Origin: Ruegeria sp. THAF33
GTDB taxonomy: Bacteria; Pseudomonadota; Alphaproteobacteria; Rhodobacterales; Rhodobacteraceae
DNA: 64,000 nucleotides
Reading direction: 5' to 3'
NCBI RefSeq assembly: GCF_009363615.1
Contig: NZ_CP045385.1
Location: 186,001 to 250,000, forward strand
Part shown: piece by piece, positions 12,693 through 63,979 of the stretch
Position numbering within the stretch: position 1 is the stretch's first letter
Layout of the letters: each line of letters opens with the position of its first letter
Notes under the pieces: model-generated
Seen by the model: only the letters and a program-made list of their open reading frames with translations
The model's database searches: none
What the model was told of the DNA's origin: nothing
Made by a program: the position numbers and the translations under genes

Positions 12693-12700
12693 AAACATGG

Positions 12701-48854: not shown

Positions 48855-50141
48855 ATGAGACACATTCCTACAACGGCATTCTGGGCCATTCTGGTTGGAG
48901 CGCTGACGGTCAGTGCTGAAGCGACAACCTTTAAAGAGCCGGACGCTGAATTCATCGAAGCTGCGTCAGCAATTGGATTAACAGGAGAGAACTGGGAAAC
49001 ACCTGAATTCATCGCCTCTGCCATGCCACACGTCTACAAGTTTTCCCACAGCTACACGCTGCACAAGGGCGATTATGTTCGTGAGTTGCCCCAAAGCGAT
49101 CAGGTTCTGAACCTAGAAGAAGTAATGGTTCAGGATTATGACGGGCCAATTTCTGCAAGAGACTTCCTGTTGAACCGGATGCAGAACCACAATGCAGTGA
49201 TTATTCAAAATGGTGAACTTATTCACGAGCACTATGGAAATGGATTGGACGAGTATTCAACGCATCTCGACATGTCGGTTTCTAAATCCTTTACAGCGAT
49301 GGCCGCGGCAATTGCTGTTGGAAAGGGTTTGCTCAATTGGGAAGACCCAGCAATCCGGTACGTACCTGAATTAGCAGGGACCGCATTCGAAACCGCCACG
49401 GTGCAAGAGATTTCTGACATGCGGACTGCGGTCGTGCTGGCCCCCGGAACAGCAGAAAAATACTGGGATACCCGCCTTTCTGAGGCACAGGGCTATTATG
49501 GTCAGGAAAAGTCCGAGGCTTACCCAAACGGCACGATGGACTTCTTTCCTTTGATCACTGAGCGGCAAGACTACGCAATGGGTGAGAAGTACGACTACCA
49601 GGATGTCAACAGCGAGCTTCTGGGGCTCATCGTGGACCGCGCGACCGGAGAGTCTTTCACGACAATTCTTGAGCAGGACCTTCTACAGAAGGTGGGTGTC
49701 GCTTCAGATGCCCATTTCATGTCCGACAAGAAGGGCCTAGCGATGGGGTCTACAGGCATGAACATGGCTACCAAAGACCTCGCTCGCGTCGGCCTGCTCT
49801 TTCTGAATGAAGGCAAGAACGAACTTGGGGAGCAAGTGTTGCCCGCCCAATTTGTCTCTGACCTTTGGGAAGGAAATGAAGCCGTACGCAGCGCTTGGCT
49901 TAAGGGCAAAGAATCTGCGCTAGCTCCGGGTTACTACAAAGATCAATTTAGAGTTCTTGAAGTAGGTGATTACCGCATTTTGGCTATGATTGGCGTCAAT
50001 GGGCAAATGTGCGTCATCAACAAGGAAACAAACTCGGTCATTGCCTTGAACGGTGCGTACCCAATGGCAGAAACCCCTCGTTTCGCCACCATGCAATTCC
50101 ATCAATTCGTGCCAGCGATCTTAGATGCCATGTCAAATTAG
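48855..50141 (+). CDS. exported serine hydrolase of the beta-lactamase fold (paralog 2)
   Basis: 428 residues with a signal peptide (ILVGALTVSAEA). SxxK lies in HLDMSVSKSFTAMAA, the Tyr motif in EKYDYQDVNSELLGL, and the C-terminal HxG-equivalent region reads MIGVNGQMCVINKE. It is paralogous to the protein encoded at 46155, in the opposite direction. Like that protein it is likely a periplasmic esterase/amidase. It is followed 75 bp later by the PAP2-barrel fusion gene. Confidence 0.85.
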   Translation: MRHIPTTAFWAILVGALTVSAEATTFKEPDAEFIEAASAIGLTGENWETPEFIASAMPHVYKFSHSYTLHKGDYVRELPQSDQVLNLEEVMVQDYDGPISARDFLLNRMQNHNAVIIQNGELIHEHYGNGLDEYSTHLDMSVSKSFTAMAAAIAVGKGLLNWEDPAIRYVPELAGTAFETATVQEISDMRTAVVLAPGTAEKYWDTRLSEAQGYYGQEKSEAYPNGTMDFFPLITERQDYAMGEKYDYQDVNSELLGLIVDRATGESFTTILEQDLLQKVGVASDAHFMSDKKGLAMGSTGMNMATKDLARVGLLFLNEGKNELGEQVLPAQFVSDLWEGNEAVRSAWLKGKESALAPGYYKDQFRVLEVGDYRILAMIGVNGQMCVINKETNSVIALNGAYPMAETPRFATMQFHQFVPAILDAMSN

Positions 50142-50216
50142 CAGTGGTCGCTGAACCAACTCGTGAGGACAAGTCTGCCCACTAGTTTCAAAGGGGTGCA
50201 AGTTGAGGCGTGAACT

Positions 50217-51497
50217 ATGGAAATGTTAAGAAAAGCAACTGCGGTCGTGCTGTGTGCGTCACTAGGTGCGCTGTCTTCTCCGTCAGTTGTATCTGGTGAC
50301 ACAACTGATGACCTCGAAGACGTCGGCGACGTTCTCCAACTGGCAATTCCTCTCGCAGCCCTTGGGATAACTTATGCTAAGGACGACAAGGAGGGGCGAC
50401 AACAACTCGCAAAGGGTGTTGGCACCACTTTTCTGACCGTTCAGAGCCTTAAGTTTCTTGTGGAGAAATGGCGCCCCAATTACTCGGCGGACAATTCCTT
50501 TCCGTCGGGGCACACCGCAGCTGCATTCTCGGGTGCTGCTTTCCTTCAAACACGGTACGGATCCAGCTACGGCGTACCAGCTTATCTGCTAGCGTCTTTT
50601 GTCGGTTACACCCGAGTTCGCGCCGAGAAACACTTCTCCGACGATGTCCTGGCCGGTGCAAGTATCGCAATGCTTAGCAATTGGTTGTACGCGACGCCTT
50701 TGGAGAAGGGAGTCAAGGTTCTTCCCACAGTCTCGCAGGATGCAGTCGGCTTGCAGGTTTCGATGCTTACTGGATCAAACAAATCGGCAGAGACAAAAGT
50801 GACAGAACCCTTCAAACCCAGGTTTAGGTTTTCATTCTCCTTCGGCGCGAGCAGTCTGGACAACAACGACGTACGATCTCCCAGTTCAACCGGCTCACAG
50901 CTAGACCTTGAACAGTTTGATACCTTTTCAAACCCGACCACAAGTTCCGCGGCGAGTTTCGAGTATTTCATGTCTGATCAGCATGAGTTCTACGCGGTCC
51001 TAAATCCGTTAGAGGTACGAGACGAAGGCACTTTTTCAAACCCCGTTCGGTTTGACGGTACGGTATACCCGGCAAACACCACGACTGCGATGGATTACGT
51101 TATGAACGAAATTCGTGGCGGTTACCTGTACAACGTCGTCCCTGAAGGTCGGTTCGATTTGAAAATTGGCGGGGGTCTGACCTTTCAAAATACCTATGTG
51201 CGACTTGTTTCCGGCAATTTGGATCGAGAAGTCGAAAGCAACGACTTTGCGCCATACGCGAGCATCCATGCCAGCTATGAGCTGTCTGATCGGTTAGAAT
51301 TTCAGTTGGGTGTCGACGGCACTTCGTTCGACTCTGTCGAGTTTCTAGATGCGGTCGCCTTGCTGAGCTACAAACTCGCACCACAATGGGATATTGGAGT
51401 AGGCGTTCAAAGCTTCAGCCGAAAGCTGGATGTGGCTGAACTGAAGAACAAATACGATGCCACCAGTGTCTTTTTGAATGTTGGGTATTCATTTTGA
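50217..51497 (+). CDS. PAP2 phosphatase fused to an outer-membrane beta-barrel
   Basis: 426 residues. After a signal peptide (SSPSVVSGD) comes a PAP2 domain with all three motifs: K79...R86-P87 (KFLVEKWRP), PSGH at 96-99 and R133...H139...D143. From about residue 200 the sequence changes to short amphipathic strands ending in an aromatic residue (VFLNVGYSF), as in outer-membrane barrels. The phosphatase, acting on lipid phosphates or similar, would face the periplasm anchored to the outer membrane. Unlike usual PAP2 enzymes it lacks the six-helix inner-membrane layout. Confidence 0.75.
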   Translation: MEMLRKATAVVLCASLGALSSPSVVSGDTTDDLEDVGDVLQLAIPLAALGITYAKDDKEGRQQLAKGVGTTFLTVQSLKFLVEKWRPNYSADNSFPSGHTAAAFSGAAFLQTRYGSSYGVPAYLLASFVGYTRVRAEKHFSDDVLAGASIAMLSNWLYATPLEKGVKVLPTVSQDAVGLQVSMLTGSNKSAETKVTEPFKPRFRFSFSFGASSLDNNDVRSPSSTGSQLDLEQFDTFSNPTTSSAASFEYFMSDQHEFYAVLNPLEVRDEGTFSNPVRFDGTVYPANTTTAMDYVMNEIRGGYLYNVVPEGRFDLKIGGGLTFQNTYVRLVSGNLDREVESNDFAPYASIHASYELSDRLEFQLGVDGTSFDSVEFLDAVALLSYKLAPQWDIGVGVQSFSRKLDVAELKNKYDATSVFLNVGYSF

Positions 51498-51968
51498 AAA
51501 CTTGGAAGCAACCCAAATAGGCTGTTGAGGCTCAAATTACACATCTACCATTGCTCTGACGAATGATCGCGAATGCTGTTAGCGAAACTTTGCAAAGTCC
51601 GCTTTCTGCGCATCGCTGTCATTGGAGCTTCGCGCGGCATCAGTCAATTTGGACTCGGTAACGACCGTCGCTGACTTCCGTATATGTGGTTAGAGGAAGC
51701 CTCAGGCGGGCCATGCCAACAGTGCTTACAATTCTGCGTTGCGGACAACCTATTTGGCACTCGTTTAGCGAGAGGTTTCCCGAAACTACGCGGTGACTTT
51801 CGAAGTGCAGCACACTCCGTCTTGACATAGTGACACGAACTGGTTCAGCTTCAGGTCATGACGTACTCACGCATCCACTGCCATCGAATATCGGTCTGAG
51901 GTCGATAACCCACGCGAAATCCGTGGGAGGCAGCATTGGTATGCTGGCGAGGCTTATATCATTGTAAT

Positions 51969-52018
51969 CGCTCCAGATTAGAGTGCACGAGTCGGTTCGA
52001 TTCCGACTCCTCCTACCA
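51969..52018 (+). other. tRNA 3'-half-like fragment (possible att-site remnant)
   Basis: Fifty bases fit the 3' half of a class I tRNA: anticodon-arm-like stem CGCTC/GAGTG with a 7-nt loop, 5-nt variable loop, T arm GTCGG-TTCGATT-CCGAC, a 7-nt acceptor strand TCCTCCT, then A and CCA. The loop has A at the position of the invariant U33. No convincing 5' acceptor or D arm precedes it, so it is probably a fragment left by integration. Confidence 0.5.
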
Positions 52019-52033
52019 TCCTCAGGAGGAGTC
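52005..52033 (+). promoter_or_regulatory. hairpin hiding the ribosome-binding site of the next gene
   Basis: GACTCCTCCT (52005-52014) pairs perfectly with AGGAGGAGTC (52024-52033). The second arm contains the SD for the ATG at 52038, and the first arm is the acceptor strand of the tRNA-like piece. The structure could block translation or act as a transcript end. Confidence 0.5.
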
Positions 52034-52037
52034 CGAC

Positions 52038-52544
52038 ATGGCGGACGAAGTCACGAACGCAATTGATTTCAACGACATCAAGCAGTCGGTCGAGAAGAAC
52101 GTCGGCCACACACCCAAAGGCTGGTCCGGCTTGGTCACGGCGCTCTTTACAGAGGTTAAGGAATACTGCGATCTAAAGGATTTCACCTACTCTTTCATCC
52201 TACAGATCAAAGAGAAACTGGGAGAGCTCCGCATCTGCCACCGGTGTGATGATCGACACATCCAATCGATGATCACCTCCACGATTGCACGAGCAAATCG
52301 TACCTGTGAGCGATGCTCAAACGCTGCCGAGACCCAGATTTTGGATGGGCGGTACACGACCCTGTGCTGCTGGTGCGCGCATGATGTCGCGAGCAAGAGC
52401 CACCCTGAAAGAAAGAGGTTTTTTGGTGTTCGAAAAAAGCCTGCTCGGAATCGAATGACGTGCTCGGTCTGTGGATATTTCGGTCAGATCGACCGAACTG
52501 ATGACCGCGGACGCTGTCCTGTATGTGTGACGAAAGGGTGGTGA
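52038..52544 (+). CDS. cysteine-rich phage-type protein of unknown function
   Basis: 168 residues from ATG 52038 (SD AGGAGGA). The core (QIKEKLGELRICHRCDDRH..., then TCERCSNAAE, TTLCCWCAHD) matches the layout of a phage/bacterial hypothetical family with the pattern IKEKFG-LRF, then CxxC, then a TLC-like end. A second zinc-ribbon-like pair follows at the C-terminus (CSVCGYFG...CPVC). Probably zinc-binding; function unknown. It overlaps nothing, and the next gene starts 3 bp later. Low GC, next to a tRNA-like fragment. Confidence 0.7.
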   Translation: MADEVTNAIDFNDIKQSVEKNVGHTPKGWSGLVTALFTEVKEYCDLKDFTYSFILQIKEKLGELRICHRCDDRHIQSMITSTIARANRTCERCSNAAETQILDGRYTTLCCWCAHDVASKSHPERKRFFGVRKKPARNRMTCSVCGYFGQIDRTDDRGRCPVCVTKGW

Positions 52545-52547
52545 GTG

Positions 52548-53135
52548 ATGCTCAAAATCGTTGTCTACGCAAACGAAAGAGAGATCGCCCGGACCCCAGC
52601 CGGGAACGTCAGCGATGACATCGATGGTCTCTGCGACTACGAAGTGCGCGTGAACGAACGAGAGTCTGAGCAGCTCGGTATCGAAGAGAAAGCAGTACGC
52701 TTCGATATCTCGCAGCATAATCGCCAGCAGACGGTGTGGACACTCGTTGAGAAGATCGCCGCCATATGGCTGGAGAAGACCGGTGCGCGAGAGCCCCGCA
52801 CAAAGGCTGACGACGTGACGCGCGCATTCCTGAAGCTGAAGAAGGCCAAATTTCTCGCCGGACAAGCATCGCTGTCTGATCCGATTGGCGCAGAGGAGTT
52901 CGACGCGCTCGCTGCTGACGTCGAGATTGATCCACTGACCAGCGCGCTTTTGGCACTGCAAGAGGCAAGGATCGCACTTGGCCGGGCAAAACTATCTGAT
53001 CCGATTTCCGCAGATGAGATCAGAGCGCGCAAGGTACATGAAGGTAGTGACAACGAATTGCTGTCGCAGATTCGGACGAGCATTCGCGAATTGGATGAGC
53101 GCATCGCTAGTGAAGTGAATGCTTCTACAAGTTGA
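52548..53135 (+). CDS. hypothetical protein, partner of the cysteine-rich gene
   Basis: 195 residues from ATG 52548; a GTG one codon earlier is also possible. The N-terminal part is beta-rich (LKIVVYANEREIARTPAG), and the remainder is helical and acidic with two similar segments (AKFLAGQASLSDPIGAEEFD and ARIALGRAKLSDPISADEIR), suggesting an internal duplication. No known domain was recognised. It is 3 bp downstream of the cysteine-rich protein gene, so the two are almost certainly co-expressed. Confidence 0.65.
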   Translation: MLKIVVYANEREIARTPAGNVSDDIDGLCDYEVRVNERESEQLGIEEKAVRFDISQHNRQQTVWTLVEKIAAIWLEKTGAREPRTKADDVTRAFLKLKKAKFLAGQASLSDPIGAEEFDALAADVEIDPLTSALLALQEARIALGRAKLSDPISADEIRARKVHEGSDNELLSQIRTSIRELDERIASEVNASTS

Positions 53136-53262
53136 AGAATGCTAGCCGAGTTGCAACACGCTGCGACGTGCCCGCCGAAAGCTCTTCTGCTTCGCCGATT
53201 TCGCATCAACCCGTCTCTGGCTCAGCCATTAGTCAACATGAGCTAAATAATATGCGAGATGG

Positions 53263-54546
53263 CTAAGGAGTAAACCCTTTCGGCACACCGAATATCGGCG
53301 AGTCTACGCTGCGACCTGTCAACGAATTCAGAAAAGCAATCAGGTTTTCTATTTCTAATTCCGTGAGTTGGATCGGATCGATATCAATTTTCTTGCGTTG
53401 ACGTGCCATTTCATATTGGTCCTGCCAAACTAGGAAATCCGTTTTTTGCAACCATGGCACGTGGGGTAAGGCAGCCATTTGTGGGGTCCATTTGTCCAGG
53501 CTGGCCTGCGGATCCAAATGATGGCGAATGACGCTTTCAAGATCGGGGAAGGCGCCATTGTGACCGTACGGTGCGGTCAGGGCAACGTTACGGAGCATCG
53601 GGGTGCGGAACCTGTAGGCATCCTCAAGGCGGTTGCTTTCACCCATGCGGCCGACATCCCGGACGAAGGGATCCCACTGCCGGGTGCGACCCGGCCCAAA
53701 GGGAGGCAAGCCCAGTGCATGGAACTTCTGATCTGACATGAGCGGTCCGCTGTGGCAGGCGGAGCAGCCGGCTTTGCCGTAAAACAGCCTCATCCCCTCG
53801 ATTTGCGCCGGTGAAAGGGCCTTCGTGTCGCCCGCAAGATAGTGGTCAAACGGGCTGTCGGTGCTGCGCCATTCGATCGCCATGAAAGCGGCCAGAGCGT
53901 TGGCGACTTGCGTGATCGTGATGTCCTCGGTCGTCTCGACCTCATCAAAGGCGGCGACCATGGCCGGACCATAGCGCAGATCGGTGCGGACGCGTTTCGC
54001 CAGAATGGGCCAGCCCTTGTCGATACGATCATGCACCGCGCCAGTGACTTCATTTTCAGCCACATTGCCCGCCATCTCGAATTGTGAGGTCAGGGGGAAC
54101 AAAGCCTGTGCCGCCAGCAGGGAGTTCAGGCCCTCGGGCAGCCACTCCTGCGCCGGGGAATTGAAGCCGTTGCCGTAGACGTCGGAAATGCTCAGCCTGC
54201 CGTCGTGAAAGACGGTGTGTATGTCCTTGGCCCCAAGATTCCACAGGCCCGGAGAGTTGCGAGGGATGCGTTTGCGTATTCTGTCGGCCCCGGTGCCGGG
54301 TGTGCGGTCCGGCCCCAACTCCTGCCCGCCTTCTCCTATGCCCAGAGACAACCCGTCCGAAGTGCCGAAATCCGGGTGGTGACAATGGGCGCAGGCGATG
54401 TTGCGGTTGCCTGACAGGATCGGGTCGTAAAACAGTTGATGACCGATGGCGGCCTGTTCCATATCAAAGGGGATAAAGTCATCATCGGTCAGCGGGCGCG
54501 GCAAATCCTGTGCCACAGCGGCCCCGACCCAGAAGAAGGCAACCAT
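53263..54546 (-). CDS. di-haem cytochrome c peroxidase / MauG-family protein
   Basis: 427 residues from ATG 54546. Two CxxCH haem sites are visible (ACAHCHHPDFG and GCSACHSGPL), with the family motifs RNSPGLWNLG and RTPMLRNVALTAPYGHNG. Such enzymes reduce peroxide or modify partner proteins in the periplasm. From this ATG the signal peptide (FFWVGAAVAQ) lacks basic residues; the basic run KGKNK lies just upstream in the open frame, so the true start may be a non-ATG codon within the divergent Sel1 gene. Confidence 0.85.
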   Translation of the reverse strand: MVAFFWVGAAVAQDLPRPLTDDDFIPFDMEQAAIGHQLFYDPILSGNRNIACAHCHHPDFGTSDGLSLGIGEGGQELGPDRTPGTGADRIRKRIPRNSPGLWNLGAKDIHTVFHDGRLSISDVYGNGFNSPAQEWLPEGLNSLLAAQALFPLTSQFEMAGNVAENEVTGAVHDRIDKGWPILAKRVRTDLRYGPAMVAAFDEVETTEDITITQVANALAAFMAIEWRSTDSPFDHYLAGDTKALSPAQIEGMRLFYGKAGCSACHSGPLMSDQKFHALGLPPFGPGRTRQWDPFVRDVGRMGESNRLEDAYRFRTPMLRNVALTAPYGHNGAFPDLESVIRHHLDPQASLDKWTPQMAALPHVPWLQKTDFLVWQDQYEMARQRKKIDIDPIQLTELEIENLIAFLNSLTGRSVDSPIFGVPKGFTP

Positions 54547-54549
54547 CCC

Positions 54550-55020
54550 ATGCGCCAGCTTGTTCTTGCCCTTTGCGTATTTGCGTCTCCGGCTCTGGCT
54601 GAACTGGAACAAGCGCGCGATATGATGGAAGCCGGACAGTTTGCAGCCGCGCGCGAGGAACTTCTTCCAGCCGCGCGCTCGGGCAACGCCGAGGCTGAAG
54701 AGTTGATCGGCGTGATGTACGGGCTGGGTTTGGGGGTCGAGCAGGATTACGAACGGGCTTTTGAATGGTATCTGCGGGCCTCGATGAAGGGGCATCCGGG
54801 GGCGCAGTCGGGCGTTGGCTGGTATTACGAATTGGGTCTGGGCATGCCCGCGCCCGATCTGGTGCGTGCGTATATGTGGTACACGCTCAGCGCCATTGGC
54901 GGCGACCCCGACGCGGCGATCAGCCTTGAGGAAGTGGTCAAGAAAATGTCGCCGGAGCAGATCGAAAAGGCGCATGTTCTGGTCAACGACTACAAAGGGT
55001 GGATGTACCCGTTTCGGTGA
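54550..55020 (+). CDS. exported Sel1-repeat protein
   Basis: 156 residues. A signal peptide (MRQLVLALCVFASPALAE) is followed by two to three Sel1-like repeats (AEELIGVMYGLGLGVEQDYE; AQSGVGWYYELGLGM; AYMWYTLSAIGGDPDA). Sel1 repeats form helical protein-binding arrays, usually periplasmic in such genes. The start codon is only 3 bp from that of the divergent peroxidase gene. It converges on the TRAP transporter, with a stem-loop between. Confidence 0.85.
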   Translation: MRQLVLALCVFASPALAELEQARDMMEAGQFAAAREELLPAARSGNAEAEELIGVMYGLGLGVEQDYERAFEWYLRASMKGHPGAQSGVGWYYELGLGMPAPDLVRAYMWYTLSAIGGDPDAAISLEEVVKKMSPEQIEKAHVLVNDYKGWMYPFR

Positions 55021-55044
55021 GGGCCAGGCCGCAAAGCCCGGCCC
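55021..55044. terminator. stem-loop between Sel1 gene and dctP
   Basis: GGGCCAGGC (55021-55029) pairs with GCCCGGCCC (55036-55044) with one mismatch around a 6-nt loop, directly after the Sel1 stop and just before the dctP stop. GC-rich but without a T-run. Confidence 0.55.
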
Positions 55045-55050
55045 AACCGT

Positions 55051-56112
55051 TCACTTCAGATCCGCATCGCGAGCGGCGTTGACGTCCGCCTCAGCCGCCG
55101 CGACCGCCTCGGTCAGTGCAGCAAAGATCTCGTCGCCTCGCGCAACGTTGGACTGGAACCAATCATAGACTGGCGTTGCGGCCTCTTTGAACGCAGCCTT
55201 CTGATCGGGTGTCAGCACATAGAGGTCTCCGCCACCGGCGACGAAATCCTCATAGGCTTGGATCGACTTGCGCTTGGGGGAGGCGAAAGTGGCCTGTTGC
55301 AGGGCATAGAACCCGTCGACCACGACGCGGCGCAGATCCTCGGGCATCTCCTGGAACTTGGCGTTGTTCATCCACCACAATGCGCCCATATAGGCGTGGC
55401 CGTCCAGCGTTACGTATTGCAGGCCCGCATCCGGGAATTTCATGCCCATGATGTCGGTGATGCCGTTCTTGGATCCTTCAACGACACCGGTCTGGAAGCT
55501 GGTGAACAGTTCCGGCCACGGGATTGGGGTGGGCGACGCACCTAGCGCCTTGACCAGTTCCTGCGGCAGGTCGGCGACGACGGTGCGGATTTTCAGACCT
55601 TCCATATCCGCAGGCTCGGCAATGCGGCGCTGTGTGTTGGCAAAGTTGCGCCAGCCGCCGGTGTTGCCGATGGTCATCAGACGGATCGCGCCGCCCGAGT
55701 CCTCAAGCGCCATGTCGCGCATTGTGCGGGTGAAATCGCCCGACAGGACATGCTCGGCAATGCGGTCATCGGCCATCAGATAAGGCAGGTCCAGAACCTG
55801 CACGTAAGGAAAGATGCCTGAGGCACCGCCCGAGGTCGAGATGTAGATGTCGATGGTGCCGTCTGCCACGCCCTGCAAGCATTCGGCCCCGTTCGAGCAA
55901 AGCTGTGTGCCGATGAACAGTTCGACCTCGATCGCGCCGTTCGAGGCAGATTCGACATAGTTCTTGAAGACGATCAGACCGTCATAATCCTCATCGTTTT
56001 CGTTCGAATTTGCGGTTGCGCGCAGTGTATAATCGGCGGCTGTCGCGGCCATGGCGGACGCCGCCACCAGCGATGTGGCCACCGCTGCGGTTTTGATGAA
56101 TTCTCTGAGCAT
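55051..56112 (-). CDS. dctP: TRAP transporter substrate-binding protein (DctP family)
   Basis: 353 residues with a signal peptide (VAASAMAATAADYTL). DctP features include the carboxylate-anchor region (NTQRRIAEPADMEGLKIRTV) and WPELFTSFQTGVVEGSKNG. It delivers an organic anion to the DctQM permease, driven by a sodium or proton gradient. It is the last gene of a six-gene leftward operon with a flavin monooxygenase set, which suggests a sulfonate substrate such as sulfoquinovose (inference). Confidence 0.92.
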   Translation of the reverse strand: MLREFIKTAAVATSLVAASAMAATAADYTLRATANSNENDEDYDGLIVFKNYVESASNGAIEVELFIGTQLCSNGAECLQGVADGTIDIYISTSGGASGIFPYVQVLDLPYLMADDRIAEHVLSGDFTRTMRDMALEDSGGAIRLMTIGNTGGWRNFANTQRRIAEPADMEGLKIRTVVADLPQELVKALGASPTPIPWPELFTSFQTGVVEGSKNGITDIMGMKFPDAGLQYVTLDGHAYMGALWWMNNAKFQEMPEDLRRVVVDGFYALQQATFASPKRKSIQAYEDFVAGGGDLYVLTPDQKAAFKEAATPVYDWFQSNVARGDEIFAALTEAVAAAEADVNAARDADLK

Positions 56113-56136
56113 GCGTTTCCTCCCTGTGGAACTCAG

Positions 56137-57426
56137 TTAGTTGGCAAATCCCGTTATCCTCGGGATCGTCATGGATAGTGCGGGTATGTAGGTGATCAGG
56201 AAAATCACGATGATTTCGACCGCCAGGAACGGCAGGATCGCTTTGGCGATGGTTTCAACCCGTTCGCGCGATACGGCGGCGGCCACGAACAGCACCAAAC
56301 CCATTGGCGGGGTGGCGAGGCCTACTGTCAGGTTGACGCTCATGATGATGGCAAAATGGATCGGGTCGACGCCGAGGCTGGTGAAGATCGGGCCAAGGAT
56401 TGGTCCAAGGATGATGATCGCGGGGCCTGCGTCCAGGAACATGCCGACGATGAACAGCAGCAGGTTGATCAGGAACAAAAGGATCAGCGGGTTTTCCGAC
56501 AGGCTGAGGATCAGCGAGGCCAGTTGTTCCGGCGCATGGCTGAGGCTGACGACCGTCTTGAACGCCATCGCAGCACCAACCAGCAGCAGAACAACGGCTG
56601 AAGTCATGCCTGCATTGCTGAGCACCTCGGGGACCTCTTTCCATGTCAATGTCCGCAGGATGAAGAACCCGATGATGAAGGCATAGCCCACGGCGACTGC
56701 CGCAGCCTCGGTCGGTGTGAAGATACCACCCAGAATACCGCCCAGAATGATGACCGGTGTCATCAATGGGAAAAAGGCCTTCAAACTGGCCTGACGCCGC
56801 TCGGGCCATGTGTATTTGCGGCTGGCGACGGGGAAGTCATAGCGGTCGGCCATCAGTTTGATCATCAGCATCAGACCGACACCGACCATCACGCCCGGAA
56901 CGATCCCCGCCAGAAACAACGCGGCCACGCTTTCGCCCATCACATAGGCATAGATGATCATGATGCCCGAGGGCGGAATGATCGGCCCGATCACCGAACT
57001 CGCCGCCGTGATCGCGGCGGCGAATTTACGGGTATAGCCCTGTTTCTCCATCGCCGGGATCAGCATCGACCCTAGCGCCGAGGTGTCCGCCACGGCGGAC
57101 CCCGAGAGGCCCGCGAACAGAATCGAACTCAGCACGTTCACATGCGCCAGACCACCGCGCAGATGACCCATCAGAGCCTGCGAAAACTCGACAAGGCGGA
57201 TGGTGATGCCGCCTCGGTTCATAAGCTCTCCGGCCAGCATGAAGAAGGGGATCGCCATCAGAGGGAAGCTGTCCATGCCGTTATAGACGTTGCGATACAG
57301 CAACGTGATGTCGTTCGTCTGGCCGTTCAGCCACAGCAGGATTCCGGGCGCCGCCAGCAAAGCGAAAAAGACCGGCAGGCCGATCAGCAGGAAAATCAGG
57401 AAGGTGGGCAGGAACCAGATCAGCAT
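56137..57426 (-). CDS. dctM: TRAP transporter large permease (DctM family)
   Basis: 429 residues with about twelve hydrophobic segments. DctM patterns are clear (LPVFFALLAAPGILLWL; MAIPFFMLAGELMNRGGIT; ANITAASSVIGPIIPPSGIM-type segment; TPTEAAAVAVGYAF). It carries the ion-coupled substrate path. It directly abuts dctQ, with the stop and start separated by no more than a base. Confidence 0.94.
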   Translation of the reverse strand: MLIWFLPTFLIFLLIGLPVFFALLAAPGILLWLNGQTNDITLLYRNVYNGMDSFPLMAIPFFMLAGELMNRGGITIRLVEFSQALMGHLRGGLAHVNVLSSILFAGLSGSAVADTSALGSMLIPAMEKQGYTRKFAAAITAASSVIGPIIPPSGIMIIYAYVMGESVAALFLAGIVPGVMVGVGLMLMIKLMADRYDFPVASRKYTWPERRQASLKAFFPLMTPVIILGGILGGIFTPTEAAAVAVGYAFIIGFFILRTLTWKEVPEVLSNAGMTSAVVLLLVGAAMAFKTVVSLSHAPEQLASLILSLSENPLILLFLINLLLFIVGMFLDAGPAIIILGPILGPIFTSLGVDPIHFAIIMSVNLTVGLATPPMGLVLFVAAAVSRERVETIAKAILPFLAVEIIVIFLITYIPALSMTIPRITGFAN

Positions 57427-58014
57427 TTATTCGGCCCCCACTGCCGCATCAGGAATTTCAGGCAACAGGTGGCCGCCGCCCAGCAGAGTGATGAAGGATC
57501 GCAGGATCAGCTCGATATTCACCGAGATCAGCAGGATGACTCCCACCAGCAGCGATGCCATCATCCAACTGCGCGGAATGCGATACCATTCGTCGAACCC
57601 GAAAGAGGTGGGCAGATACAGCGCGGCAGTGGCGAACTTGCCGCCAAAGCCAGTGACCTCGGACCAGCCGATATTGACCGCGACCAGCAGGACGGCGAGC
57701 GCGATCAAAAGCAGGAACAGATTCAGCGTTTGGCCGATGATGCGGGGAAGGAGGCGTTCCAGCATGTCGATGGCCACAAAACCGCCGCGCCGAAAGGCTG
57801 TGGGGGCCATCAGACCGGTCATCCACAACATGCAGAACCGCGCGGCCTCGTCCGGCCAGGGCAGCGCATTGCCCAGAACGTATCGGAAAAACACCTGGAT
57901 CAGAATTGCGATCACCATGAGCGCAATCGCAACAACACCAACCGCGCGGCCCAGACGCAGCACGGTTTCGTTCACGAATGCAATCAGTGCAAGCACCGAT
58001 GCCAGTCCGCCCAT
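57427..58014 (-). CDS. dctQ: TRAP transporter small permease (DctQ family)
   Basis: 195 residues with four membrane segments and the DctQ pattern around VFFRYVLGNALPWPDEAARF. It partners DctM in the inner membrane. It follows the flavin reductase gene by 53 bp on the same strand. Confidence 0.92.
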   Translation of the reverse strand: MGGLASVLALIAFVNETVLRLGRAVGVVAIALMVIAILIQVFFRYVLGNALPWPDEAARFCMLWMTGLMAPTAFRRGGFVAIDMLERLLPRIIGQTLNLFLLLIALAVLLVAVNIGWSEVTGFGGKFATAALYLPTSFGFDEWYRIPRSWMMASLLVGVILLISVNIELILRSFITLLGGGHLLPEIPDAAVGAE

Positions 58015-58067
58015 GCGGATCCTCCCTTGGTCAGCCGCGGGTGTCCCCCACGGTCATCAAATCGCGC

Positions 58068-58586
58068 TTAGACTTTCGCGAATTGGCCGAGTTTCCCGGC
58101 ATAAAAGGTCAGCGCGTCTCCATCCGACATACTGGCCCGTAGAACCTTTCCAACCACAATAACGTGATCGCCTGCATCGTGATAAGCGTGCTGTTCGCAT
58201 TCGAACCGCGCAAGGCAGTCCGCCAACACCGGCGTCCCATTCTTACAGCGCCCGTGGGTGATGTCCCGCAGTGCAAAGGCGTCTTTCGAGCAGCCGAAAC
58301 ACAGCTCGGCCTGGTCCGAAGACAGCACATGCACGCTGAAATGGCGCGCCTTGTGGAAATAGGGGAAGCGACGCGAGTTTCGGTCTCCGGCCCACATGAT
58401 CAGCGGTGGGTCAAGCGACAGGGACGAAAAGCTGTTGGCGGTGATGCAGACCGGACCGTCCGCGCTGTCGCAGGTCACGATGGTGACACCGGTTGCAAAG
58501 CGGCCGAAGGCGTCGCGCAGGGTACGTGTGTCGTCCTTATGTGGAATGAAGGTGCGGGTCATGTCCTTTGAGATTGCGTTCATCAT
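58068..58586 (-). CDS. flavin reductase (SmoA-like)
   Basis: 172 residues of the flavin reductase-like FMN-binding family (FGRFATGVTIVTCDSADGPV; ANSFSSLSLDPPLIMW). It supplies reduced FMN to a two-component monooxygenase, here most likely the LLM protein encoded two genes upstream. Its start overlaps the aldo/keto reductase stop (ATGA). In the sulfo-SMO pathway this role is SmoA; that assignment is inferred from the gene set. Confidence 0.88.
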   Translation of the reverse strand: MMNAISKDMTRTFIPHKDDTRTLRDAFGRFATGVTIVTCDSADGPVCITANSFSSLSLDPPLIMWAGDRNSRRFPYFHKARHFSVHVLSSDQAELCFGCSKDAFALRDITHGRCKNGTPVLADCLARFECEQHAYHDAGDHVIVVGKVLRASMSDGDALTFYAGKLGQFAKV

Positions 58587-59473
58587 GGTACCTCGTGCCC
58601 CAGTGCCGCCTCGTACAGGCGGAACCAGCTTTCGCGATCCAGTTTGACTTTCAATGCGTCCGAGGCGCGTTTGATCCGGTCAAGATTGTTGGTGCCCAGA
58701 ACCGGCAGGATGTTGGCTGGGTGGGCCAACAGGAACGCCACTGCGACGGCGGCGCGATCCACGCCAAACCCGGCTGCGACTTCATCGGCGACGACCCCAA
58801 CCGGCGGGTTTCCGGCCATCAACAGGCCTCCACCCAGCGGCGACCATGCCATCAACGGATGGCCATGCTGTTGGTGAAACGCCAGATCACCGTTGGTGAA
58901 AGGGCTGATCTGACCCAGAGAAATTTCGATCTGGTTGGTGACCAACTGCGTTTTCATCGCCGATTGCAGCAACGACCAATCCCACGGGCGGAAGTTTGAC
59001 ACACCCACCGCACCGACCTTTCCACTGGCGACGACCTCATCCAGGGCGGCTCCGGTTTCATGGTGGTCCATCATGGGGTCCGGGCGGTGGATCAACAGCA
59101 GATCGATGTGGTCAATCGCCATTTCCGACAGCGACGTGTCGACTGATTTCAGAATGTGGGCGCGCGAGGTGTCGTAGTATTTTACCTTCGCATCCGCGTA
59201 ACGGCCAACCGGCGCGACGATGTCGCATTTGGTGACGATCTCCATCTTCTGACGAAGGTTTGGATTGGCGCGCAGGGCGGCACCCAGCACGGCCTCGGCC
59301 TTGTAGCCGCCATAGATGTCGGCCTGATCGAAGGTGGTGATACCCTGATCCAGACAGGTCTGAATCTTGGCCTCGACATGGGCCGCGGACGTGTCACTGT
59401 CATCGCCCAACCGCCACATGCCATAGACAAGGCGGCTCATCTCCAGCGAGTCAGATAGTTTCACACGTTGCAT
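58583..59473 (-). CDS. aldo/keto reductase (SmoB-like)
   Basis: 296 residues from ATG 59473, which overlaps the monooxygenase stop (TGATG); upstream in-frame codons lie inside that gene. AKR motifs: Asp/Tyr of the catalytic tetrad in FDQADIYGGYKAE, Lys in MEIVTKCDIV, His in LLLIHRPDPMMD, and NQIEISLGQISP. In the sulfo-SMO pathway SmoB reduces 6-oxo-glucose, the product of the monooxygenase, to glucose. The role here is inferred from the neighbours. Confidence 0.88.
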   Translation of the reverse strand: MQRVKLSDSLEMSRLVYGMWRLGDDSDTSAAHVEAKIQTCLDQGITTFDQADIYGGYKAEAVLGAALRANPNLRQKMEIVTKCDIVAPVGRYADAKVKYYDTSRAHILKSVDTSLSEMAIDHIDLLLIHRPDPMMDHHETGAALDEVVASGKVGAVGVSNFRPWDWSLLQSAMKTQLVTNQIEISLGQISPFTNGDLAFHQQHGHPLMAWSPLGGGLLMAGNPPVGVVADEVAAGFGVDRAAVAVAFLLAHPANILPVLGTNNLDRIKRASDALKVKLDRESWFRLYEAALGHEVP

Positions 59474-60627
59474 CAGCGGCGTTCTCCGTTGCCCAGCGGT
59501 GTGGCCGGGGTCGTTTTGGGAACCCTTCCGTAAGCTTCGGGAAGGGAACAGGTTTTCAAATTCGGCAACACGCGGGCGCCGAAATGGCGGGCTTCGTCCA
59601 GATGCGGGTAGCCCGAGAAGATGAAAGCGCGGATGCCCATCTTCTGGTATTCCTCGATCTTCGACATAACCTGATCCGTCGATCCGACCAGAGCGGCACC
59701 GCAACCAGACCGTGCCCGGCCAACACCGGTCCAGAGACCGGGTTCGACATAGCCGTACTCATCCGCCAGATCGCGGTTCCTGGCCTGATGCGCCACCCCC
59801 AGCGAGGTCGAATCCAGCGCCCGTTCGCGGATGGCGCGACCGTATTCGTCGTCCAGCTTCGAGACGATGTAATCCGCGTATTCCTGTGCCTCAACCTCGG
59901 TATCGCGAACGATCATATGGACACGCAACCCGTAATCCAGCGTGCGGTCGTAGTTTTCAGCGACAGCGTGAACGGCCTTCATCCGTTCGGCCAGTTGATC
60001 CTTGGTTTCAGGCCACATCAGGTAGACGTCACAATGCTCGCCGCACAGATCCAAAGCAGAGGGAGAATAGCCGCCGAAATAAAGCAGCGGCCCGCCGGTC
60101 TGATATGGCTTGGCCGGGTCGGTGGTCAGGCCCGAGAAATTATAGACCTCGCCTGCATGATTGATCTCATCCCGCGTCCAGGCCTGTTTCAGAATCTCCA
60201 CCACTTCGCGCGAGCGCTGATAGCGGAACGCGCTGTCGGCCTTCTCACCGGGAAAGTCGGATGAGATGATGTTGACCGTCAAACGCCCCTTCAGCATGTG
60301 GTCCAGCGTTGCGATGGTGCGGGCCAGCATGATCGGTTGCATCTCGCCACAGCGCACGGCGGCCAGCAGGTTGATCCGCTCGGTGATCGGGGCGCAGCCG
60401 GCGACAAAGCTCAGCGTGTCTTGACCGACCTGATAGGAGGACGGGCAGAGGATGTTGCGAAAACCCTGCGCCTCGGCCTCTTTCACAATGTTCGAGCAAT
60501 GCTCCCAACTCGACCGCAGGGCACCATCGGGAACGCCAAGGAACTGGTAATCATCGGAACACAGCGCAGCGAACCAGGAAACTTCGGCCGCATCCAGATC
60601 GGGGGATGTGATGGGGACGATGCTCAT
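59473..60627 (-). CDS. FMNH2-dependent sulfonate monooxygenase (LLM class; SmoC/SsuD-like)
   Basis: 384 residues from ATG 60627 (SD GGAG); the frame extends 15 codons further with no SD. Luciferase-like features include LTVNIISSDFPGE, PLLYFGGYSPSALDLC and the C-terminal GRARSGCGAALVGSTDQV. Such enzymes split a C-SO3 bond with O2 and FMNH2, giving an aldehyde and sulfite. First gene of the leftward operon with an aldo/keto reductase and a flavin reductase, the set that defines sulfoquinovose monooxygenase loci. SsuD for alkanesulfonates is the alternative. Confidence 0.86.
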   Translation of the reverse strand: MSIVPITSPDLDAAEVSWFAALCSDDYQFLGVPDGALRSSWEHCSNIVKEAEAQGFRNILCPSSYQVGQDTLSFVAGCAPITERINLLAAVRCGEMQPIMLARTIATLDHMLKGRLTVNIISSDFPGEKADSAFRYQRSREVVEILKQAWTRDEINHAGEVYNFSGLTTDPAKPYQTGGPLLYFGGYSPSALDLCGEHCDVYLMWPETKDQLAERMKAVHAVAENYDRTLDYGLRVHMIVRDTEVEAQEYADYIVSKLDDEYGRAIRERALDSTSLGVAHQARNRDLADEYGYVEPGLWTGVGRARSGCGAALVGSTDQVMSKIEEYQKMGIRAFIFSGYPHLDEARHFGARVLPNLKTCSLPEAYGRVPKTTPATPLGNGERR

Positions 60628-60677
60628 TTGATTCACGCTCCGTACATCTTTGACTTTCCTCTTGCGTAGCAATCGCT

Positions 60678-60691
60678 TTGATGTAGATCAA
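60678..60691. promoter_or_regulatory. candidate GntR-type operator in the divergent promoter
   Basis: TTGAT-GTAG-ATCAA is a perfect 5-bp inverted repeat, followed at 60698-60702 by another ATCAA-like half (GTATCAA). It lies between the divergent monooxygenase and regulator genes and overlaps the upstream alternative start of the regulator, supporting the downstream start. Confidence 0.45.
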
Positions 60692-60732
60692 TAGTGTATC
60701 AATTTTTCCTGCGACCGAGTGAAGCGTCTGCC

Positions 60733-61443
60733 GTGCCTGCATCCAACCGAAACCCCAATGCCCTGCCGGTATATATTCAGATCGCGGAACTTCTGATCCG
60801 TGACATCGCGGCTGGTCGCCTTATTGACGGTGAACGATTGCCGCCCGAGCGCGAGATGGCCGCAGAGCTGAATGTCTCGGTTGGAACGCTGCGAAAGTCG
60901 CTCTCAGAGCTGGAAAAAAAGGGGATGTTGGAGCGTATCCAGGGCTCGGGCAACTACATACGCGAGACCGGTACGCAAAACAGCGTCTATGCAATGTTCA
61001 GGCTGGAACTGCCGGAAGGGGGTGGCCTGCCTCGTGCGGATATCCTGTCGGTTGACCATCTGAAAAAGCCGATCGATCTGCCGAAATTCGGTGCTTCTGA
61101 CGCCGGTTCGCGTGTCCGGCGGATGCGCTACCTGAATGATACAATCATCGCTGTCGAAGAAATCTGGCTGGACGAATCAGCGGGCCTGATCGACCAGAGC
61201 CTGCTGTCCGACTCGCTCTATCGCTACTATCAGCGCCAGTTGGGCTTTTGGATCGCAAGAGCCGAAGACAGGGTTTCGGTCCGGCCTCTACCGGACTGGA
61301 CGCCTTCTGGCTTCACCAAGCCAGCCGGCCAAGCAGTCGGTTACATCGAGCGTTTCAGCTGGTCGGAAAGCGCCGAACCCGTCGAATTCTCAAAAACTTG
61401 GTTCGACCCGGATCGGGCCAATTACGTACAACGTCTGAAGTAA
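60733..61443 (+). CDS. GntR-family regulator with UTRA effector domain
   Basis: 236 residues from GTG 60733; an earlier GTG at 60694 lies within the operator-like palindrome and has no SD. The N-terminal GntR winged HTH (GERLPPEREMAAELNVSVGTLRKSL) is followed by a UTRA ligand-binding domain (about residues 95-235, VRRMRYLNDTIIAVEEIWLD). It is divergent from the monooxygenase operon and upstream of the Gfo/Idh/MocA-type gene, so it probably represses both until a sugar-like inducer binds. Confidence 0.88.
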   Translation: MPASNRNPNALPVYIQIAELLIRDIAAGRLIDGERLPPEREMAAELNVSVGTLRKSLSELEKKGMLERIQGSGNYIRETGTQNSVYAMFRLELPEGGGLPRADILSVDHLKKPIDLPKFGASDAGSRVRRMRYLNDTIIAVEEIWLDESAGLIDQSLLSDSLYRYYQRQLGFWIARAEDRVSVRPLPDWTPSGFTKPAGQAVGYIERFSWSESAEPVEFSKTWFDPDRANYVQRLK

Positions 61444-61455
61444 AAGGAATTGCGC

Positions 61456-62553
61456 ATGACCCGGACCATCAAATACGGGCTGATTGGATGCGGAATGATG
61501 GGGCAAGAGCACCTGCACAATATCGGATTGCTGGAAGGTGCCAGTGTGGCTGCGATCTATGAACCCGATCAGGAGATGGCAAAAGCCGCCAAGGAAATTG
61601 CGCCAACTGCAACCATGGTAGGTTCCGTGCAAGAGCTACTGGCGGTAGAGGAACTGGACTGCGTCGTCATTGTCAGCCCGAATCATCTTCATGTGGACCA
61701 GATCTGCGAAATCGCAGAAACACGTCCTCTGCCGCTTTTGGTAGAAAAACCACTGTTCACCGACCCGCAAGACGTGCCCCGACTTGAGCAGTTGCAGCGC
61801 GACTACCCCTGCCCGATTTGGGTCGCGATGGAATACCGGTACATGCCCCCTATCGCTGCTTTGATCGACAAGGCCGAGGCGACAGGTGGGGTGAAAATGC
61901 TGTCGATCCGCGAGCATCGTTTTCCCTTCCTCGACAAGGTCGGCCACTGGAACCGGTTCAACCGAAATACTGGCGGTACTTTCGTCGAGAAATGCTGCCA
62001 CTTCTTCGACCTGATGCGTCTGATATTGCAATCCGATCCGGTGCGCATCACGGCAAGCGGCGGGCAGGCGGTGAACCATCTGGACGAAAGTTACGACGGT
62101 CAAACCCCGGATATTCTGGATCATGGCTTTGTTCTGGTCGACTTTGCTTCGGGTGCGCGCGCGATGTTGGAACTTTGCATGTTTGCCGAAGGCGCACGCT
62201 ATCAAGAAGAAATATCGGCCGTCGGACCGGACGCCAAGATCGAGGCGTTTGTCCCCGGACCCGGACGATTCTGGCCCGATCACTTGGGAGCCCCGCCATT
62301 GCCTCAGGTGATTTTGAGCCCGCGCAATCCCAAAGGTCCGGTATCAATGGACGTTCCGGTGGACCCCACCCTTTTGGCGGCTGGGGATCACAATGGGTCG
62401 ACCTACTATCAGCACAAAGGGTTCCTGTCCGTGCTTCGTGGCGAAACAGCAAAGCCGGATGTGAGTTTGCAGGACGGCCTCTGGGCTGTCAGGATGGGGC
62501 AAGCGGCGCAACAGGCAATTGAAACCGGTGAAACGGTTTACTTGGCCGACTGA
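61456..62553 (+). CDS. Gfo/Idh/MocA-fold NAD-dependent protein (oxidoreductase or GH188-type sulfoquinovosidase)
   Basis: 365 residues from ATG 61456 (SD AGGA). The Rossmann start (YGLIGCGMMGQEHL), EKP motif (LLVEKPLF) and the C-terminal sheet domain (REHRFPFLDKVGHWN; FVEKCCHFFDL) define the family. Most members are sugar or inositol dehydrogenases. NAD-dependent sulfoquinovosidases (GH188) share this fold and occur in sulfo-SMO loci, which this gene accompanies. Which activity it has cannot be told from sequence alone. Confidence 0.82.
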   Translation: MTRTIKYGLIGCGMMGQEHLHNIGLLEGASVAAIYEPDQEMAKAAKEIAPTATMVGSVQELLAVEELDCVVIVSPNHLHVDQICEIAETRPLPLLVEKPLFTDPQDVPRLEQLQRDYPCPIWVAMEYRYMPPIAALIDKAEATGGVKMLSIREHRFPFLDKVGHWNRFNRNTGGTFVEKCCHFFDLMRLILQSDPVRITASGGQAVNHLDESYDGQTPDILDHGFVLVDFASGARAMLELCMFAEGARYQEEISAVGPDAKIEAFVPGPGRFWPDHLGAPPLPQVILSPRNPKGPVSMDVPVDPTLLAAGDHNGSTYYQHKGFLSVLRGETAKPDVSLQDGLWAVRMGQAAQQAIETGETVYLAD

Positions 62554-62896
62554 TCGGGGCCGGAGTCCCGGGTGCGTTTTGCGATCGCTAAAGGACCCCT
62601 TAGACTGTTGCAGGCAATGTCTTTCATCGTATGACTAGGACCACGATCGCTTGATTGGTTTAAGAGGGTCAAGCTCGCTGAAACTTCAATCTGCAGCGCG
62701 CTGTGTTTATGCAGAACGCGGCGCTTCTGGAATGTCGGGTCTTTGCTTTTCTGTCTGGTCAAGCGCGTCACGGGGTTCTGAGCTTAGTCACTGTCGAAGA
62801 TTCGCATTCTAAACTAAGTTGAGCTACAGATTATTGTGCCAACTCAAGTGCCGACAGGTAAAAAGGAACACATAAACTAAATAACATCAGTATCTT
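62554..62896. other. intergenic stretch, no gene recognised
   Basis: 343 bases between the Gfo/Idh/MocA-type gene and the last gene. The end is AT-rich (62855-62890), as expected for a promoter, with no clear consensus. No supported gene was seen. Confidence 0.45.
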
Positions 62897-63979
62897 ATGC
62901 GCTTAGTAACGAAACTTCTCTCACTGCTTTGTATTCTGGCCATCTTTTCGGTGACCTCAAGACCTTTGCAAGCTTGCTCAGTCTGCGTGACTTTGCCTGA
63001 GGCTTCGTCGGCTGATCACATTATTTCCGCGGACATTATCGTTCTGGCCGGTCCCACACCGGACAACCCGTTCCGGTTTTCTCCGGTTCACATTCTGAGA
63101 GGGACAGAACAGAAAATCTCAACGCTGCCGGAAATACCGTTTCTGATCGAAAGCAAGACCCGCGCAGCTTTCCGGTCCAATCCAGAAAAGACGGTTCTCT
63201 TCACCTATGGCGCAACCGACAAGGATGGTGCAGGGCGTAGCATTTCAAGAAGCTGGAAGCGCTTATTCATGATGACGCCAGACAGATCTCGGTTTGTTGA
63301 GGATTTAATAGCTGTTGGAGGATCGTGGGCGTACGGCGACAATGACGGCTCGGAGCGTGTTATGTTCTTTGCGGGCTATCTAAGCCACGAAGATCATGTG
63401 CTGAGAAACATCGCTATGGTTGAAATCTACCGTGCCCCATATGAATTTGTTCATCCACTTCGGAACACGGTGCCTACTGAGCAGCTCCTGCAAGAATTTC
63501 GTAGTCTGAACAGGATCAGTTACATACCCGTCGCGGTGCGTCTGCTTGGCTTGCAATCTGATGAACAGGCAGCCTCTGTTGTGCGTTCGCGATTTGAACA
63601 GGTTTTGAAAAGCAATGGTCAAAACCTTTATGAATGGGCTCTCGCAGGTATCGAAATCGACGGCGCCCTTGCAGTTACTGCGATTGAGCGAGCACTGCAG
63701 CGCCCCGGCTGGCAACCGCCCGAAAAGCAATCCCTGATCCGGGCTTTGACCGAAGGCGGCACGGTTTTGCCTGAACTTCGCGCTCAGATTATTGGCATTT
63801 TCGCGAGTGAACTCGAAAAGGACCGTAATCTAGCGCCGCGGATCGCAGTTGCCATGCGGAACTGGGGCGAGACCGCCCTGAATCACCAATTTCAAGCGCT
63901 TATCGTGAGGGGCGAAATTGATCCCGCGACACAATTTGTTCTCGGAACAATAATCGGCGCGGGGCAGGTCACCGATTGA
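62897..63979 (+). CDS. exported protein of unknown function
   Basis: 360 residues with a strongly hydrophobic signal segment (LLSLLCILAIFSVTS) ending near LQACSVC; the cysteine could be a lipobox, but the fit is poor because L-Q-A-C is followed by more Cys. The mature part has no family I recognise; a helical C-terminal half (from about residue 190, many short helices such as PVAVRLLGLQSDEQAASVV) looks HEAT-like. Isolated at the window's right end. Confidence 0.7.
   Translation: MRLVTKLLSLLCILAIFSVTSRPLQACSVCVTLPEASSADHIISADIIVLAGPTPDNPFRFSPVHILRGTEQKISTLPEIPFLIESKTRAAFRSNPEKTVLFTYGATDKDGAGRSISRSWKRLFMMTPDRSRFVEDLIAVGGSWAYGDNDGSERVMFFAGYLSHEDHVLRNIAMVEIYRAPYEFVHPLRNTVPTEQLLQEFRSLNRISYIPVAVRLLGLQSDEQAASVVRSRFEQVLKSNGQNLYEWALAGIEIDGALAVTAIERALQRPGWQPPEKQSLIRALTEGGTVLPELRAQIIGIFASELEKDRNLAPRIAVAMRNWGETALNHQFQALIVRGEIDPATQFVLGTIIGAGQVTD

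Follow-up and report, generated by a model that had tools for sequence, protein, structure and literature searches.

How bacteria that degrade sulfoquinovose (SQ), the sugar of a plant sulfolipid, bring this sulfosugar or its glycosides into the cell is the question raised by the locus described here. SQ production amounts to ~10 billion tons per year according to the accessed part of PMC10755693, and the characterised uptake systems for SQ and SQ-glycerol are ABC systems in the portion of PMC9594981 that was available. No description of the uptake route for SQ glycosides in marine Roseobacters was found in the papers examined, as far as their text was accessible. The window, a stretch of 64,000 nucleotides from a marine bacterium of the Ruegeria type, possesses at 55051-62553 the minus-strand genes dctP-dctM-dctQ-smoA-smoB-smoC and the divergent plus-strand genes gntR-sqgA. 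All eight genes of the original prediction were recovered as open frames at the coordinates given there, each in its claimed Pfam family. The predicted span contains these eight genes but stops short of two others belonging to the same conserved block, which code for a Sel1-repeat and a MauG-like protein. The features are as follows.

53263..54546, minus strand: MauG-like di-haem protein of the TRAP module, start uncertain (PF03150, 113.9 bits; two CXXCH motifs)
54550..55020, plus strand: Sel1-repeat protein of the TRAP module (PF08238, 60.9 bits)
55051..56112, minus strand: dctP, TRAP solute-binding protein, predicted SQ / SQ-glycerol receptor (PF03480, 180.5 bits)
56137..57426, minus strand: dctM, large TRAP permease subunit (PF06808, 405.7 bits; TIGR00786 above cut-off)
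57427..58014, minus strand: dctQ, small TRAP permease subunit (PF04290, 80.6 bits)
58068..58586, minus strand: smoA, flavin reductase predicted at family level to supply FMNH2 (PF01613, 122.2 bits)
58583..59473, minus strand: smoB, aldo/keto reductase predicted to convert 6-dehydroglucose to glucose (PF00248; 64.4% to 7bby)
59473..60627 (listed frame to 60672), minus strand: smoC, predicted FMNH2-dependent SQ monooxygenase (PF00296; 79.9% to 7olf)
60683..60702, minus strand: conserved element TTGATACACTATTGATCTAC, candidate GntR operator (97/99 SmoC-GntR gaps)
60694..61443 (true start probably ~60733), plus strand: gntR, GntR/UTRA regulator (PF00392, PF07702)
61450..62553, plus strand: sqgA, predicted GH188 NAD-dependent sulfoquinovosidase of the Gfo/Idh/MocA family (68.0% to 8zn9)

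The most likely starts of SmoB and SmoC are the ATG codons at 59473 and 60627, the latter being residue 16 of the listed frame. Synteny was analyzed in the best 80 of 576 scan-confirmed SmoC loci from genome contigs. In this sample SmoC is accompanied by SmoB and by an upstream, divergent GntR in 80/80 loci, by SmoA in 78/80 and by SqgA in 77/80. DctQMP with a full DctP match was found in 63 of the 80 and was absent from 12; the contig ended after or within DctQ/DctM in four, and in one locus (L041) roughly a third of dctM was present while dctP gave no match. Since related genomes repeat the same order, the arrangement is beyond chance.

Over 383 residues SmoC is 79.9% identical to 7olf; for SmoB and 7bby the value is 64.4% over 295 residues. 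We take these structures to be the characterised SmoC and SmoB, although their PDB molecule names differ. Among PDB scores, SmoC reached 724 and 719 bits with 7olf/7oh2 and 182 bits with SsuD, so the proposed distinction of the monooxygenase from SsuD held by scores. It is scarcely credible that the locus serves SsuD-type scavenging of sulfur from alkanesulfonates during sulfate starvation and not a carbon-source pathway. SmoC does belong to the SsuD superfamily and matches TIGR03565 at E 2.3e-71, but its 240.7 bits fall below the curated cut-off of 518.2; the identity to 7olf and the company of SmoB and GH188 proteins in 80 and 77 of the 80 loci argue against this reading too. In the part of PMC13372026 consulted, sulfo-SMO is recognised by SmoC and SmoB being encoded together, and here the two genes are adjacent at the identities given above. 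The flavin reductase of the operon fits the SmoA role at family level by its PF01613 match and position.

The Gfo-type protein was likewise placed as predicted, both by scores and by residues. SqgA showed 68.0% identity to 8zn9, 184 of 363 identical residues in the stretch aligned with ArSqgA, and 574 and 373 bits with GH188 enzymes vs 54.7 bits with the best inositol dehydrogenase. It stays below the cut-off of the inositol 2-dehydrogenase IolG model TIGR04380 (92.8 vs 355 bits). All eight counted residues of the SQ/NAD site (K107, Y136, R166, L170, K172, E189, H193 and H321 in ArSqgA numbering) are retained; these residues, the sulfonate triad among them, were taken from the accessed text of PMC10755693. 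At Glu163 of the same text the printed chain has V and SqgA has R, both followed by Glu, and this position was left uncounted. The substrate could in principle be another sulfosugar or sulfoglycoside in place of SQ-glycerol, such as sulfofucose or a different SQ glycoside. Sequence cannot show substrate range, and GH188 acts on alpha- as well as beta-SQ glycosides (PMC10755693, part consulted). The retention of the eight residues with the sulfonate triad makes such a substrate very improbable, and the sulfofucose pathway in the available part of PMC12421959 has different enzymes and ABC systems. No signal peptide was seen by eye in SqgA, which would require the import of the intact glycoside.

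The 20-bp element was found in 97 of 99 SmoC-GntR gaps (own gap included, <=4 mismatches) and in 0/99 with the reversed control. When <=3 mismatches are allowed, a 24-base version of it occurs once in the own genome. The element is a candidate GntR operator from its conservation and position. The GTG listed as start of GntR (60694) lies inside it, and therefore the true start is probably further in, at ~60733. For the smoC promoter, an FNR-type box (TTGAT-N4-ATCAA) was also considered and rejected, as Ruegeria-type sequences have it and several others do not.

The sulfo-SMO enzymes with GH188 are already known in Roseobacters, the latter having been reported within such clusters (PMC10755693, accessed part), and the TRAP system is the previously open part. 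DctP, DctQ and DctM are all above the gathering scores of PF03480, PF04290 and PF06808. An AlphaFold2 model of DctP from 106 rows (pLDDT 93.2) has the canonical TRAP receptor fold; another from 32 close rows was set aside (mean pLDDT 49.9). Comparison of the modelled fold points to a TRAP receptor and nothing narrower.

The genomic distribution of DctP is more specific. Orthologues were found in 54 of 149 family genomes, together with SmoC in 40, with SQ isomerase in 13 and with neither in one (G048); thus 53 of the 54 carry an SQ pathway marker of one kind or the other. DctP lies on the SmoC contig in 37 of the 40, 3.2-4.9 kb apart and on the same strand, and on other contigs in three. This DctP is absent from 21 of 61 SmoC genomes of the family sample. 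The 13 isomerase genomes of the family, where the enzyme is of the fucose-isomerase type, all have DctP and none has SmoC, and 9/13 have a sulfo-EMP-like cluster with a GH188 homologue. In a second sample of 13 class-level DctP matches, SmoC adjoined six and was on another contig in two; four belonged to sulfo-EMP-like loci (one of them from another family, with 52% identity) and one was unplaced. All nine plasmid records with DctP have SmoC nearby.

Nine DctP loci without SmoC combine an SqvD-type isomerase (PF02952), a YihV-type kinase (PF00294) and a YihT-type aldolase (PF01791), families named for these sulfo-EMP steps in the consulted part of PMC9594981. The YihT-type aldolase was not found in L110, the isomerase of L113 had no PDB match, and no SQ isomerase was found in the own genome (E 1e-20). 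A Rieske oxygenase adjoining SmoB in L114 was considered as a SmoC substitute and dropped: its best match was a glycine betaine monooxygenase (below cut-off), the neighbouring gene is sarcosine oxidase/aminomethyltransferase-like, and G126 carries an isomerase elsewhere. No SmoC remnants were detected in five SmoC-less DctP loci or their genomes (E 1e-20). In the DctP tree, built from rows with match cover >0.85 and length 330-400, the sulfo-EMP rows are interspersed; four changes are needed, at least three of them forced by well-supported branches. The tree omits L113 (sulfo-EMP) and some SMO rows failing these filters, and also the own-genome copy L117. Sulfo-SMO and sulfo-EMP have SQ and its glycosides in common, not a short sulfonate or sulfite, and differ in cytosolic steps and end products. 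With SQ and its glycosides as the entry point of both routes, the ligand of DctP best supported by the data is SQ or SQ-glycerol, and from these associations DctPQM appears a strong candidate for the SQ uptake system. The proposal of a TRAP system in place of the ABC importer thereby gains independent support, as the second SQ pathway uses the same DctP.

The enzymes could be sulfo-SMO and the TRAP system could still carry another solute (sugar acid, short sulfonate or osmolyte), with SQ taken up through an ABC or MFS carrier of its own. An MFS gene lies near the DctP-less SmoC loci L052 and L064, an ABC-type binding protein near L071, L076, L081, L088 and L095 (ABC nature partly by eye), and an annotated sugar ABC system near L128. 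Among the 63 TRAP-bearing loci of the best 80 of 576, two have an MFS gene and eight a binding protein too, and the solved receptors nearest to DctP include sugar-acid and isethionate binders. Against this stand the presence of the same DctP beside a second SQ pathway with other cytosolic steps and end products, and the interspersion of sulfo-EMP rows in its tree, SQ and its glycosides being what the two routes share. We consider a different TRAP solute unlikely. The SQ-glycerol ABC importer SmoEFGH was not seen at the locus, where the 15 Pfam-scanned frames of 48855-63979 gave no ABC family; the expectation that ABC genes are not needed is consistent with the locus itself. The ABC binding protein of L056, used as SmoF seed, had no own-genome match; the seed itself had no SmoF-like match, its sole PDB match at E 1e-10 being another sugar-binding protein. 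The L071 binding protein had no Pfam match.

The Sel1-repeat and MauG-like genes follow DctP in 52 of the 63 TRAP-bearing SmoC loci (from the best 80 of 576) and are present in 7/9 sulfo-EMP-like loci. The Sel1-repeat protein is probably exported, judged from a signal sequence seen by eye. The MauG-like protein scored 257.1 bits with TIGR03981, under the cut-off of 340. DctP is present in 37 of 39 family genomes having the MauG-like orthologue; the MauG-like counts exclude paralogue CCP matches (<=50% identity). It is tentatively suggested that DctPQM represents a TRAP family dedicated to SQ/SQ-glycerol, shared by sulfo-SMO and sulfo-EMP across several alphaproteobacterial families, in which a periplasmic MauG-like di-haem enzyme and the Sel1 protein prepare or protect uptake. 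If so, SQ uptake has a previously undescribed periplasmic redox partner.

Taken together, gene content, homology, active-site residues, synteny and the conserved element indicate that the locus very probably encodes a sulfo-SMO (sulfo-ASMO) pathway for complete SQ use with TRAP import of SQ-glycerol and/or SQ. Periplasmic DctP would capture the substrate and the DctQM permease would import it, presumably with sodium. In the cytoplasm, NAD-dependent SqgA would split SQ-glycerol into SQ and glycerol. SmoC, provided with FMNH2 by SmoA, would cleave the C-S bond to give sulfite and 6-dehydroglucose, which SmoB would reduce to glucose. GntR may occupy the gntR-smoC element and be released upon SQ or a derivative. 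The literature searched yielded no account of TRAP-mediated SQ uptake; the cluster drawings of Liu 2023 (Roseobacter SQ use, ISME J 17:393) or the supplement of PMC10755693 may show TRAP genes. Were a TRAP receptor to mark SQ use whatever the downstream pathway, it would be a pathway-independent genomic marker of SQ users. As a binding protein DctP is open to assay, which would test the import of intact SQ-glycerol by marine bacteria before GH188 cleavage.

Compared with known systems, the locus resembles sulfo-SMO/sulfo-ASMO clusters (SmoABC; SquD/SquF) in having SmoC, SmoB and a flavin reductase in one operon along with a sulfoquinovosidase gene, but this sulfoquinovosidase is GH188 and not GH31. 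Where the Agrobacterium cluster that has been characterised encodes an ABC system for SQ-glycerol (PMC9594981, accessed part), TRAP DctPQM is found here. No tested feature separates the SqgA of the locus from GH188 SqgA enzymes. The sulfo-EMP clusters of related genomes share the same DctPQM and a GH188 homologue, and mostly the Sel1/MauG-like pair; they differ by a DeoR-type regulator in 8/9, and such a cluster is absent from this window. Among sulfonate TRAPs, the isethionate receptor IseP (8t9t, 8te9) has 23% identity to DctP, and in contrast to these systems, the putative sulfolactate DctPQM2 (PMC10507020, part consulted) included, DctP is here predicted to bind a six-carbon sulfosugar or a glycoside of it.

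The window covers positions 186001-250000 of contig C2 in a genome of 4.63 Mb. The sulfo-SMO-like gene set that had been proposed for it was confirmed, with the following arrangement.

Within window 55051-62553, minus strand, in this order: smoC, smoB, smoA, dctQ, dctM, dctP
Within window 55051-62553, divergent from the smoC operon: gntR, sqgA
Window 53263-55020, beyond dctP: genes of a Sel1-repeat protein and a MauG-like di-haem protein, in opposite orientations, divergent, with starts close together (start of the MauG-like gene uncertain)

SmoC was identical to structure 7olf at 306 of 383 positions (79.9%) and SmoB to structure 7bby at 190 of 295 (64.4%), supporting the reading of these enzymes as a sulfoquinovose (SQ) pathway. 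We take 7olf and 7bby to be SmoC and SmoB of Agrobacterium/Rhizobium; the PDB lists the two molecules as 'Methanesulfonate sulfonatase' and 'Aryl-alcohol dehydrogenase', respectively. The Gfo/Idh/MocA-fold protein, originally predicted to be a GH188 sulfoquinovosidase (SqgA), fitted that family well, with 247 of 363 residues identical to structure 8zn9 (68.0%) and all eight counted residues around SQ and NAD kept. The SqgA assignment is firmer than the SmoC and SmoB comparison, because PMC10755693 identifies 8qc2 and 8qc3 as structures of SqgA and the counted residues are kept. Glu163 of that text was left out of the count, as it aligns with a valine in the printed chain while the adjacent Glu is kept.

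Among the best 80 of 576 SmoC loci from public genomes, the closest named relatives of this genome, judged by SmoC, belonged to Ruegeria. DctQMP genes including DctP were present downstream of SmoA in 63 of these 80 loci; four were interrupted by a contig end (L051, L058, L073, L079), 12 had no TRAP genes and one (L041) had broken TRAP genes. In L041, from Labrenzia sp. DG1229, the TRAP genes stop about one third into dctM with unrelated frames beyond (12237-15517). TRAP bearers included Roseibium (Stappiaceae) and Rhizobium sp. SL42. On Marinovum algicola plasmid pMaD9 (L128), gntR and sqgA share the strand of smoC; downstream of this sulfo-SMO cluster, an annotated sugar-type ABC system takes the place of TRAP. 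In Rhizobium sp. SL42 (L127, 14926-15885) and Ruegeria sp. TM1040 (L129, 17079-18104), the gene next to the cluster carries the annotation 'putative sulfate exporter family transporter' and may provide a path for sulfite or sulfate.

In a family sample of 149 genomes from 148 genera, SmoC was found in 61 (E 1e-120) and DctP in 54 (E 1e-80). Every DctP match was at least 66% identical, against 28% for the next paralogue in the own genome, so DctP forms a well-separated orthologue group. Forty genomes had both SmoC and DctP, three on different contigs and 37 on a single contig, where the two lie on the same strand with midpoints 3.2-4.9 kb apart. A scan with the SQ isomerase detected it in 13 genomes, all DctP-positive and SmoC-negative, with no overlap with the 61 SmoC genomes. 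Thus 53 of the 54 DctP genomes possess SmoC or the isomerase, compared to 21 of 95 genomes without DctP (Fisher 7e-22, descriptive only, as the genomes are related). This association favors TRAP as the importer of the SQ locus, as had been suggested in place of an ABC system.

DctP loci were retrieved for all 14 family genomes without SmoC, and nine were sulfo-EMP-like clusters, L110 being the weakest. Each of the nine contained DctQMP, a PfkB-type kinase, a fucose-isomerase-type isomerase and a GH188 homologue; a LacD/YihT-type aldolase, a DeoR regulator and a 2-hydroxyacid dehydrogenase were present in eight, and an aldehyde dehydrogenase in four. The sole NCBIfam match of the isomerase was sulfoquinovose isomerase NF048012, at 260.3 bits, under the cut-off of 700, and the aldolase passes NF009498. 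L105 showed neither such a cluster nor smo-locus parts. The other four loci, L107, L108, L114 and L116 (genomes G040, G048, G126 and G143), retained SmoA/B or GntR and SqgA without SmoC, L108 only a 49% flavin reductase. Three of these genomes (G040, G126, G143) encode the isomerase on a contig separate from DctP, as does G014, while G048 lacks both SmoC and isomerase. It is as if one SQ pathway had replaced the other in G040, G126 and G143, the importer staying. A PhyH-type dioxygenase of about 230 aa lies no more than a few kb from DctP in L004, L035, L105, L110 and L113.

Similar contexts were observed in 385 class-level genomes, 13 of them with DctP (three shared with the family sample). 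DctP adjoined SmoC in six, and in two SmoC was on another contig, namely G340 (in a 3.2-kb contig) and G457, where a 17.5-kb stretch spanning TRAP held no smo genes. Four had sulfo-EMP-like loci (G170, G265, G369 and G481, the last from another family with DctP 52% identical), and G512 (DctP 44%) had a context assigned to none of these groups. Among 72,556 plasmid records, DctP was found in nine (E 1e-100), all with SmoC nearby. One of these, of 323,281 bases, is as long as the contig of family genome G094 and is therefore probably not an independent case. SmoC or a homologue occurred in 21 records, ten of them at 79% or more; the one of these ten without DctP is the Marinovum plasmid with the ABC system.

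The DctP tree contained 77 ingroup proteins (81 rows with outgroups), with bootstrap not fully settled. Its eight sulfo-EMP rows need four changes, at least three forced by starred branches, so the receptor has switched partner pathway more than once; the ninth such DctP (L113) was removed by filters. Sulfo-SMO and sulfo-EMP have SQ and SQ glycosides as common starting substrates and differ in later steps, and GH188 of both contexts should act inside the cell. As the pathways share these initial compounds, keep GH188 and exchange DctP, we commit to SQ-glycerol and/or SQ as predicted DctP ligand.

Of 99 gaps between SmoC and GntR, the own one among them, 97 contained TTGATACACTATTGATCTAC at up to four mismatches (absent in L044 and L090), and none of the 99 contained a reversed-sequence control. 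A 24-base version had a single site in the own genome at up to three mismatches. The element, the likely GntR operator, was kept in L107 (two mismatches) and L116 (four), which lack smoC and retain gntR, and was not found in the other 17 loci checked, sulfo-EMP-like ones among them.

The Sel1/MauG-like pair followed DctP, up to 2.8 kb away, in 52 of the 63 TRAP-bearing SmoC loci (three of the remaining 11 reach a contig end within 1.1 kb) and was present in seven of the nine sulfo-EMP-like loci. MauG-like orthologues (at least 52% identity) occurred in 39 of the 149 family genomes, 37 with DctP, and lay within 6.2 kb of it in 30. The MauG-like protein has two CXXCH motifs. In an alignment of 63 rows, Sel1 residues W91, W110, W151 and Y153 are each kept in no fewer than 97%, making a MauG/MbnH-like modification of partner Trp or Tyr conceivable. 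L085 (G025) has a MauG-like gene (51%) after SmoA, with no TRAP or Sel1 gene found in the stretch; in G097 the orthologue is present, and DctP, SmoC and isomerase were not found.

In the available parts of the literature, GH188 is near-universal among Roseobacter sulfo-SMO clusters (PMC10755693), and sulfo-SMO is prevalent in rhizobia and Roseobacters (PMC13372026), so the sulfo-SMO enzymes with GH188 are an ordinary trait of Roseobacters. The available main text of PMC10755693 mentions no TRAP, DctP or transport. Compared to these known systems, the chemistry of the locus is not new, and what is new here is the predicted importer.
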